Origin: an uncultured Parabacteroides sp.
Lineage (GTDB): Bacteria; Bacteroidota; Bacteroidia; Bacteroidales; Tannerellaceae
DNA length: 64,000 nucleotides
Reading direction: 5' to 3'
NCBI GenBank assembly: GCA_944325335.1
Contig: CALUZR010000006.1
Location: 1-64,000 of the forward strand
Shown here: positions 61,092 to 63,732 of the stretch, piece after piece
How the letters are laid out: each line of letters starts with the position of its first letter
Position numbering within the stretch: position 1 is the stretch's first letter
Translations under genes and position numbers: made by a program
Notes under the pieces: generated by a model
Told to the model about the DNA's origin: nothing
The model's database searches: none
The model's input: only the letters and a program-made list of their open reading frames with translations

Positions 61092-63434
61092 TCAATTCCT
61101 CACCTTCATCCGCTCCTCGCCGATACATATTATATATACGCCCTTCGGCAACGAATAAGACCGAAGTCCCTCCTGTCGTTCACGCTTAAGGATTGTGCCG
61201 TTCATCGTGATAATCATCACCTCTTGCGGTTGTGAAGTATAGATATATAAGTTACCATTCTGCGTGTAAACCTTGATGCCTTCGATATCGGACATGCCTG
61301 TCGGCTCCTCCTCTATCTTCTCCACGCCTTCTACTTTGACGTAGATATCAGCATATACATTGTAGATAATGTACTCGCCTGGCTGCACACCTTCTTCTAC
61401 CTCTTCCCAATAGCCATAAAGACTGCGCTTGAACAGCACCTTTAGGTTCTCCGCATTGTAACCCTCTTCTACTTCCACATAGACGCTTACTTGGTTCCCC
61501 TCCTTTACTACGCCTTTGCTCAAGGAAGCATCCACGCCTTCGCAGACATCCTTGAATTGGATGTTGTAGTAGAGGGGTGTGGGGTCGGGCTTGGGAGCTG
61601 GTTCTTCTTCCTTTGCCTTTACTGAAACATCATAAGTTAATGTACCTTTATAATTTGTACTCTCGTAAGTAACCGTAATAGTTGCTGTTCCTTCTCCCAC
61701 TGGAGTCACCAATGCTTCGCTCTTGATTTCTGTATTCACTTCTCCGGCACGAGTGGAAAGAGTCTCTATTTCTTCTACTGTTGCTATATCGGTATCACTA
61801 CTTACCCATTCCCAATTCCCGTTCTGTTCACTATCCGGCAATCCGGTTATGGTAGCGGTCAATGTGAATGCTGTACCTCCGGCTTCGAGTGTAATTGTCT
61901 GCTCCTGTTCGTCCGGTCGGCTAATCTCTACTTCGCCCGCTTCCACCTCCAAAGTATAAGTCGCTTCGCCGGTATAATTCGGGTCAGCCGATTTTGCCGT
62001 GATCTTTACCTCTCCAACAGCTACCGCCGTTACCGTACCATCTTGTGATACCGTCGCCATATCCGTATTCTCGCTGAAATAAGTTACCGCAAGACCTGTC
62101 GGTTCTACTGTTAATACGTTCTTACATGTTTCACCAACCTTTATCTTCTTGGCATCTTCAGCAAAAGAAAGGATTGCCTCATCTTTCTCGATAGTAAACT
62201 CTACCGTTTCTTCCAATCCCGTATAATTGTCCGTGCTTTCCACTGTCGCTTTCAACACATAATCGCCAGCATCCGTAGGCGCTGTTTCACTATATTCTTT
62301 CGAATCCTTAGGGGCATACGTGAATGAGACTTCGCCGAATTTCGCCGCTCCTGATGGTGTATTGGGCGTTTCATTATATGTCCACCCCTTTATAGTTGGA
62401 GCCGTTATCCATTCGTTCTTGGCTTGCGTAATGTTAAACTTTTTCGTTACTTCATCTCCAAATAAACTACCTATAGGCATAATGGTGATGGTCGCCTCGC
62501 CCGCGTCCGTGTTATTCTCGTAAGTTACCGTGTAATCCTCGCCTTGGGTATATTCTTCTTCTATCGTTTCCGGAAGAGTTATCGTTACCTTCGGAGTTAT
62601 CGCCTCCCCCGTGTAGGTGTAGGAATCCTTCTCTATCACGACCATCTTTTCCGTCAATTTATGTTGCACCGTCCCGCTTATGTTTTCGGCTCCCGTAATC
62701 GAGCCGCCCGTCTCCACGCGGATGGCGCCGGCACCCTTCAGCTCACCTTCAACCGTCAGCTCACCGTTAACCGTCAGCGTCACGCCTTCCGGCACGGTGA
62801 GCGAGGTGCCTTCGGGAACGTTCAGCGTGTACCCCTCCGGAATCGTCAGGTCGACCGGCAGCTCGGGGGCGTCCTGGACCTGTGCCTCTTTCGCGTCATT
62901 CACGAAGACGAAACCCGCATCATAAGCGCTCTCCGGAACATTTCCCCGAACCTTTGCCTCCGGTCCGATGATAAGAGTGCCATCGTTCATTAGGATATTC
63001 CCGTTCAGGTTGATTGTCCCGCCGGTGATTGCCACAGTGGAGGATTTATCCCCCGAGATGGCAGGCTCTGAGGACATTCCATCGCTTCTTATTGTCAGCC
63101 AGCCCTCTCCGGAAATAAAAAGGGAAGAGTTAGTAAGACTGATACCCTTCGACATATTCCCTCCGTAAGTGATGGTGTTGTTTAGACCTTCTTCCAATAC
63201 CAAGTTAAGGGTAGTATTATTCTCCAAATTCATGGCTTTGCTGTTTGGTTTTGACATTGTAATCGTCACACCGCTGAATGTCATCTCGTGTTTACCGCCT
63301 TGTATACGTTGTATACGGATAGCAAAGTCGCCGGGGCCTTCTCCGTCATTGAAGCTTCCGGTGACTCTGTAGTCGGTGTTTTCTTGGTTAATAATAAGGG
63401 GGTTACCATTATTAAGAGGCCGGTCTACTGGCAC
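61092..63434 (-). CDS. Large repeat-domain surface protein, apparently without a usable start (phase-variable OFF or pseudogene)
   Basis: The open frame from the only recognised start (GTG, 63434) gives 780 residues. It has a carbohydrate-binding-like beta-helix start (FSGVTITMSKPNSKAMNLEN, ISGEGWLTIRSDGMS), MBG-like domains (YTYTGEAITPKVTITLPE), Big_2-like repeats (SENTDMATVSQDGTVTAVAV) and a DUF6383-like end (VYTQNGNLYIYTSQPQEVMI to MKVRN). The frame stays open upstream and encodes a good signal peptide (FFTLLLFLLCLPLAAQ, about 63479-63435), but no ATG, GTG or TTG lies between it and an in-frame stop at 63611. An ATG at 63679 is in another frame across an AAGC tract. The product would be exported or surface-anchored. 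Confidence 0.75.
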   Translation of the reverse strand: MPVDRPLNNGNPLIINQENTDYRVTGSFNDGEGPGDFAIRIQRIQGGKHEMTFSGVTITMSKPNSKAMNLENNTTLNLVLEEGLNNTITYGGNMSKGISLTNSSLFISGEGWLTIRSDGMSSEPAISGDKSSTVAITGGTINLNGNILMNDGTLIIGPEAKVRGNVPESAYDAGFVFVNDAKEAQVQDAPELPVDLTIPEGYTLNVPEGTSLTVPEGVTLTVNGELTVEGELKGAGAIRVETGGSITGAENISGTVQHKLTEKMVVIEKDSYTYTGEAITPKVTITLPETIEEEYTQGEDYTVTYENNTDAGEATITIMPIGSLFGDEVTKKFNITQAKNEWITAPTIKGWTYNETPNTPSGAAKFGEVSFTYAPKDSKEYSETAPTDAGDYVLKATVESTDNYTGLEETVEFTIEKDEAILSFAEDAKKIKVGETCKNVLTVEPTGLAVTYFSENTDMATVSQDGTVTAVAVGEVKITAKSADPNYTGEATYTLEVEAGEVEISRPDEQEQTITLEAGGTAFTLTATITGLPDSEQNGNWEWVSSDTDIATVEEIETLSTRAGEVNTEIKSEALVTPVGEGTATITVTYESTNYKGTLTYDVSVKAKEEEPAPKPDPTPLYYNIQFKDVCEGVDASLSKGVVKEGNQVSVYVEVEEGYNAENLKVLFKRSLYGYWEEVEEGVQPGEYIIYNVYADIYVKVEGVEKIEEEPTGMSDIEGIKVYTQNGNLYIYTSQPQEVMIITMNGTILKRERQEGLRSYSLPKGVYIICIGEERMKVRN

Positions 63435-63476
63435 TTGCGCTGCGAGCGGGAGGCAAAGCAGGAAAAGTAACAGGGT

Positions 63477-63524
63477 AAAAAAAGCCCGCGCGTAGTGTCG
63501 GTTCTCGACACCCCGTCCGGGCTT
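63477..63524 (-). terminator. Intrinsic-terminator-like hairpin ahead of the surface-protein body
   Basis: On the minus strand GCCCGGACGGGGTGTCG and CGACACTACGCGCGGGC pair (outer AAGCCCG/CGGGC, inner GTGTCG/CGACAC, loop AGAAC) and seven Ts follow. It could end the transcript of the upstream glutamate dehydrogenase copy or act as an attenuator of the surface-protein gene, whose signal-peptide codons begin inside it. Confidence 0.7.
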
Positions 63525-63538
63525 CTCGTTATACCTTA

Positions 63539-63679
63539 TTATATAACGCTTGCTTGCTTGCTTGCTTGCTTGCTTGCTTGCTTGCTTGCTTGCTTGCTTG
63601 CTAAGAAATTAGCGTATTCCACCAAAGGATTTACGCTAAAAGAAGTTAATGCGCTGTATATTTTGCAAGTATTCATCAT
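63539..63679 (-). other. Leader open frame carrying the AAGC tract (46 codons)
   Basis: From the ATG at 63679 the frame reads MMNTCKIYSALTSFSVNPLV, continues through the tract as repeated ASKQ, and stops at 63541. Its frame is one base out of register with the surface-protein frame. Gain of one tetranucleotide, or loss of two, would fuse the two frames. Whether it is translated is not known. Confidence 0.45.
63548..63602 (-). repeat. Tetranucleotide tract (AAGC)n, about 13.75 units
   Basis: An unbroken 55-base run of the four-base unit (GCTT on the plus strand). Perfect tracts of this length are prone to slipped-strand mispairing. It sits between a promoter-like box (63702-63709) and the signal-peptide codons of the large surface protein. 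Confidence 0.95.
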
Positions 63680-63701
63680 GCTTATTTTGTTGTTGATGCG
63701 C

Positions 63702-63732
63702 CAAAGGTACGATTTGTTTTTGTTTCCTACAA
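63702..63732 (-). promoter_or_regulatory. Promoter ahead of the AAGC leader
   Basis: TTG at 63732-63730, a 20-base spacer and TACCTTTG at 63709-63702 on the minus strand. Transcription would begin near 63696, about 17 bases before the ATG at 63679. It lies between the gdhA copy and the tract. Confidence 0.55.

Follow-up and report, generated by a model that had tools for sequence, protein, structure and literature searches.

Does a gene for a large exported protein that stands out of frame behind a long tetranucleotide tract represent a broken gene, or one that can be switched on and off? The question is raised by a minus-strand locus in the window, by which we mean the whole 64,000-nucleotide stretch of Parabacteroides DNA analyzed here, and the original prediction favored phase variation of a surface-protein gene that is presently OFF. 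We find that the arrangement is part of a shared, genus-wide cassette system rather than one broken gene, and that the AAGC tract probably switches the surface-protein gene on and off as the number of repeats changes.

The locus in the window

The features of the locus are collected in Table 1. The promoter, the ATG at 63679 and the frame that it opens into the 55-base tract, ending in a stop at 63541, all proved to lie where originally placed. TRF counted 13.8 copies of the repeat with 100% matches, confirming a perfect tetranucleotide tract of that length, and reported no other tetranucleotide array in the 64-kb window. The tract is thus long, perfect and built of non-triplet units, and it lies within a leader ORF from which we infer its translation; the AAGC repeat has no stop in any of the three frames and gives the same KQAS peptide from each. 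Other tandem repeats were also seen in the window by TRF: a 21-bp unit, TATCTTTAGGCTGCAGATATG or its complement, is present in 3–4 copies at 2349–2420, 35375–35456, 45407–45478 and 59625–59706, and a degenerate array with a unit of about 41/83 bp (TTCCGGAGGCCCGGAAAT...) occupies 21407–21655.

Table 1. Features of the locus (positions are those of the window)
Feature	Position	Strand	Basis
Promoter GTTG-N20-TACCTTTG, Bacteroidetes sigma-ABfr type, −33/−7 (TACCTTTG at 63709–63702, GTTG 20 nt further upstream)	63702..63733	-	sequence
Leader start ATGATG, both in frame (ATG 63679, second ATG 63676)	63674..63679	-	sequence
Leader ORF in its assembled, OFF frame: MMNTCKIYSALTSFSVNPLVEYANFLAS(KQAS)nVI-stop	63539..63679	-	sequence
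Conserved leader motif TTAACNTYTTTTAN11TTGG (LTSF....LV)	63622..63649	-	genus-wide pattern search
Perfect 55-nt (AAGC)13.75 tract, KQAS repeats	63548..63602	-	TRF and sequence
Stops of the two OFF frames, 63541–63539 (TAA, leader frame) and 63531–63529, both before the hairpin	63529..63541	-	sequence
Putative attenuator: GC-rich hairpin with T7 after it, its sequence also encoding the through-frame peptide (19-nt arms, 63482–63500/63506–63524)	63479..63527	-	folding, shuffles, inverted-repeat search
Signal-peptide hydrophobic core FFTLLLFLLCLPLAAQ, without a start codon of its own	63435..63482	-	sequence
Frame of the exported surface protein (Big_2, MBG-like, C-terminal T9SS/DUF6383-like tail), which gains an upstream start only on joining with the leader frame	61092..63608	-	sequence, profile matches

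The frame of the exported protein is open through the tract and meets a stop at 63611, and no ATG, GTG or TTG precedes the signal peptide between that stop and the signal peptide itself; both this and its displacement by one base from the leader frame had been correctly described. Over its 838 codons from stop to stop there is no internal stop, and among its domain matches Big_2 scored above the curated cut-off and MBG_3, DUF6383 and Por_Secre_tail below it. The DNA segment for the FFTLLLFLLCLPLAAQ signal peptide was present solely behind the leader, in four genomes, and we found no homologue with an ordinary start codon directly before it and no tract. The two exported relatives looked at in genome G026 (C33 and C38) have signal peptides that differ from that of the window protein.

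A leader cassette dispersed through Parabacteroides

The leader pattern in Table 1 was found in 34 copies distributed among 10 of 39 Parabacteroides genomes, with 7 copies in the source genome (G000). Beyond the genus, a search of 393 Bacteroidales genomes gave one or two matches per genome, which is the control level, and (AAGC)7 was absent from other genera of the family (125 genomes). Runs of at least five AAGC units occur at five places in the source genome and in eight other Parabacteroides genomes, and all those examined lie within the shared leader. The order of elements is constant: a TAnnTTTG promoter, a short leader ORF, (AAGC)n, 15–55 nt of spacer, a strong GC hairpin and a gene. 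Nearly all copies have a TAnnTTTG-like box 55–70 nt ahead of the leader motif, about 25–35 nt separate the promoter from the leader start, and a further 8–14 codons lead to the conserved peptide (LTSFT…LV…N-LASKQAS, with variants L-T-S/F-F-T-x3-L-V/A-x3-N-x-L-A); almost all copies have an in-frame ATG (rarely GTG) 21–42 nt before the motif. The leader frame is without stops in all 34 copies, and the other two frames are closed nearly everywhere, by up to four stops. The in-frame pN/pS of the leader was about 0.5 as compared to 0.7–0.9 in control frames, and its conservation is partly at the nucleotide level. Tracts of this kind are broken or collapsed in short-read assemblies, and six or more additional contigs break off in or at one, leaving the sequence beyond unreadable; the frame and hairpin analyses refer to the 26 loci at which sequence is present after the tract.

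At most leader copies the next gene has its own ATG and is not fused to the leader. What follows an unfused leader is either an HU-DNA_bdg/DUF4469 gene, in many cases with a large exported protein beyond it, or a gene for an LRR protein bearing a T9SS-type tail. Behind one leader copy in Parabacteroides sp. An277 stands a 1020-aa exported protein (L076, 3659–6718) that combines a eukaryote-like ubiquitin domain (PF00240, 8e-23) with InlB-type repeats. The leader copy in L066 (source genome contig 25, minus strand) is followed by an HU/DUF4469 gene, a 192-aa protein and two neighboring ORFs that begin identically; of these, the first matches Tubulin_2 (PF13809).

At every readable locus we located the first stop after the tract in all three frames. 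Exactly one frame crosses the whole hairpin at 22 of the 26, the other two stopping 1–20 nt after the tract; two frames cross at the remaining four (G016, G026 C91 and both G001 loci), and at no locus does the number of crossing frames come to zero or three. At all 26 loci, then, the repeat number determines whether the leader stop lies ahead of the hairpin or else inside or past it. With the hairpin kept fixed, the probability of the pattern in shuffled sequence was 0.13–0.65 at a single locus, so it is not rare for any one of them, and two early stops in the AT-rich spacer are unremarkable by chance; across 11 divergent representatives, the product for one frame crossing and another stopping before the hairpin was ~6e-5. 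The strength of the frame pattern is therefore in its recurrence across loci and not in any single locus. Where an unfused locus has a clear downstream gene, the through-frame in most cases ends 5–29 nt before the next ATG or overlaps it.

Tract lengths differ between species at orthologous loci whose flanks are 85–91% identical: 55 vs 67 nt (G000 C25/G026 C69), 63 vs 71 nt (G000 C43/G026 C29), 75 vs 51 nt (G000 C56/G026 C91) and 59 vs 99 nt (G001 C103/G016). These differences come from other loci of the cassette, the window locus having no ortholog among the genomes compared, and they show a tract length that is not invariant at orthologous cassette positions. Among the 19 gap-free loci with a tract of at least 19 nt, 7 were in the ON and 12 in the OFF state, which is compatible with the one third expected of a random frame. 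Some leader copies have shrunk to two or three AAGC units (G000 C54, L122; G000 C87, L123; G005 C20; G005 C37, L126), and in G000 C54, G000 C87 and G005 C37 two units are left. The gene downstream of G000 C54 has been lost and the protein of G005 C37 has a further stop, and these two look locked or decaying.

A proposed switch and its alternatives

The best explanation for these observations, and one that we consider likely from the sequences compared, is slipped-strand phase variation in which translation of the leader ORF decides whether a ribosome crosses an attenuator hairpin. RNA would start at the TAnnTTTG promoter, and ribosomes would start at the leader ATG and read (AAGC)n. Replication slippage, which we infer to act within a strain from the differences in tract length, would alter n, and each change would move the ribosome to another frame because four is not a multiple of three. 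In two of the three frames, the ribosome would meet a stop within about 20 nt and leave, the hairpin would fold, and either RNA synthesis would end or downstream translation would be lost; this is the OFF condition, and the predicted state of the window locus as assembled. In the third frame, the ribosome would cross the hairpin and block its folding, a form of antitermination. In most relatives a ribosome that crossed would then stop at the start of the next gene; at seven loci, that of the window included, it would run on into the exported protein, whose signal peptide would then be preceded by a long N-terminal stretch. The original proposal of phase variation, with the gene presently OFF, is thus supported as the best reading by the 34 leader copies in 10 genomes, the fused relatives and the differing tract lengths; it was incomplete in that it saw neither the hairpin with its likely attenuation, nor the recurrence of the arrangement in the genome and genus, nor the unfused majority of loci with their own ATG. 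It appears fairly likely, moreover, that Parabacteroides carries dispersed and interchangeable phase-variable attenuator cassettes of this kind before varied surface and HU/DUF4469 genes, with the hairpin encoding an exported N-terminus in a subset.

The output of the switch may be intrinsic termination, Rho polarity or translational coupling. The window hairpin folds at −28.9 kcal/mol (z about −5 vs shuffles), and hairpin strength at the 26 readable loci ranges from −17 to −55 kcal/mol. About 15 of the 26 hairpins have 4–7 T directly after the GC stem, the arrangement of an intrinsic terminator, and T7 follows the stem in the window. That the same switch acts instead through Rho-dependent polarity and/or translational coupling is a possibility that we hold to be unlikely against these T-runs, but it would account for the about 5–6 loci at which a good U-run is absent (G001 x2, G016, G017 and G005 C25) and for a through-frame that ends at or over the next ATG, which it overlaps as ATGA at both G001 loci. 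None of the three leader hairpins put through a consensus terminator scan was called as a terminator, and no known RNA family in Rfam matched.

The switch could also be purely translational, the tract joining or disconnecting the leader start and the exported protein as in the contingency genes of Haemophilus and Neisseria, with the hairpin incidental. Seven loci are fused in this sense, with the through-frame continuing as the exported protein (the window; G005 C20 and C37; G010 C7, C24 and C29; G024 C58), and for them a change of frame would be enough. The fused ORF of G024 C58, in the ON frame, is intact over 649 codons from leader to exported protein, and that of G010 C29 is open across N-filled tract gaps. 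The six other fused loci have the same kind of start-codon-less signal peptide as the window, and a long N-terminus is therefore normal for this class; the extension before the signal peptide that had been called odd is real but is common to all seven. At most loci, however, the next gene's own ATG makes a frame switch alone useless, although these loci have the same leader, tract and hairpin. An incidental hairpin is also difficult to reconcile with the compensatory changes seen in the G001/G016/G017 group, where 6 of 22 hairpin pairs are kept by changes on both sides. We thus regard a purely translational switch as improbable.

It is quite improbable, too, that the repeated leader serves mainly as a recombination handle for the exchange of surface-gene cassettes with the tract as a by-product, although this would fit leaders that are near-identical within a genome. 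It would also fit the single orthologous site, defined by a conserved gene, at which G000 C56 (L068) and G026 C91 (L076) carry different downstream genes behind the same leader, a possible case of cassette exchange from the sequence comparison, and the absence of the window cassette behind gdhA in every relative with a readable gdhA flank, G026 among them. From the differing genes at one site and the absence behind gdhA, cassettes therefore appear to move or be exchanged, and a recombination handle may be an additional role of the leader; but it leaves the arrangement of frames and hairpin, the conserved promoter and the start codon unexplained.

The main alternative of the original prediction, a decayed gene next to an unrelated tract, draws on the window gene being out of frame as assembled and on the two short-tract copies that do look decayed, but we reject it, leaving it almost no weight, in view of the clean frame, the recurrence of the same leader in 10 genomes, the tract-length differences at orthologous cassette positions, and the fused copies, of which G024 C58 (649 aa) is intact and G010 C29 open.

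Comparison with known systems

The contingency loci of Haemophilus, Neisseria and Moraxella undergo slipped-strand switching with tetranucleotide tracts. The Parabacteroides loci resemble them in that a surface gene has near its 5′ end a long and perfect tetranucleotide tract with no stop in any frame and a start codon upstream. They differ in that, at most loci, the leader ORF holding the tract is separate from the gene and a hairpin follows it. In this latter respect they are like the trp, his and mgtCBR attenuators, where a terminator hairpin is governed by translation of the leader peptide ahead of it; whereas these sense a metabolite or charged tRNA, the input in Parabacteroides would be repeat number.

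Within the same order, surface-gene phase variation occurs through the invertible promoters of Bacteroides and Parabacteroides (PMC12118408; PMC11868660), which depend on recombinase-driven DNA inversion. Around the promoter of the locus, at 63300–64000, the only inverted repeats were the hairpin arms and weak, widely spaced pairs unlike inversion sites, and an invertible promoter was rejected for want of suitable repeats in that interval. A recent review names inversion for Bacteroides, and phase variation in gut Bacteroidales has been studied almost wholly as DNA inversion; repeat-slippage switches have therefore not been looked for in these bacteria. In the literature searched, we found no earlier description of switching by AAGC or tetranucleotide tracts in Parabacteroides, and the only matching mechanism was that of Danne et al. 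2014 (PMC3894217). If our reading is true, a phylum known for DNA-inversion switching would also have a repeat-slippage contingency system, and a leader of standard form placed ahead of many large surface proteins would give individual cells differing combinations of the proteins that they presumably display.

The closest likeness is to pil1/pil3 of Streptococcus gallolyticus, for which it was shown experimentally that the number of GCAGA repeats sets the leader frame and thereby hairpin crossing (Danne et al. 2014, PMC3894217). Both systems have a leader ORF with a non-triplet tract and a hairpin between leader and surface operon, and in both the stop of the leader falls ahead of the hairpin, or else in or past it, according to the repeat number. 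Unlike pil1/pil3, the repeat is AAGC, the organisms are Bacteroidota rather than Bacillota, one standard leader sequence recurs in at least 34 copies, and seven loci fuse the leader to an exported protein; the genes concerned are predicted from sequence to encode HU/DUF4469 and T9SS-type proteins rather than sortase pili. The OFF stop of pil1 lies 39–49 nt from the hairpin as compared to about 0–25 nt before it at most Parabacteroides loci, which therefore lack the OFF stop at least 28 nt upstream of the hairpin that a pil1-type arrangement has. With OFF stops this close to the hairpin, closer than those of pil1, one of the OFF frames may have an intermediate effect. We propose by analogy that the cassette works like the pil1 attenuator and claim no relatedness between them; if this is true, Parabacteroides would add another, independent case from nature of attenuation tuned by repeats, and its many natural variants would allow the rule relating frame to hairpin to be studied directly.
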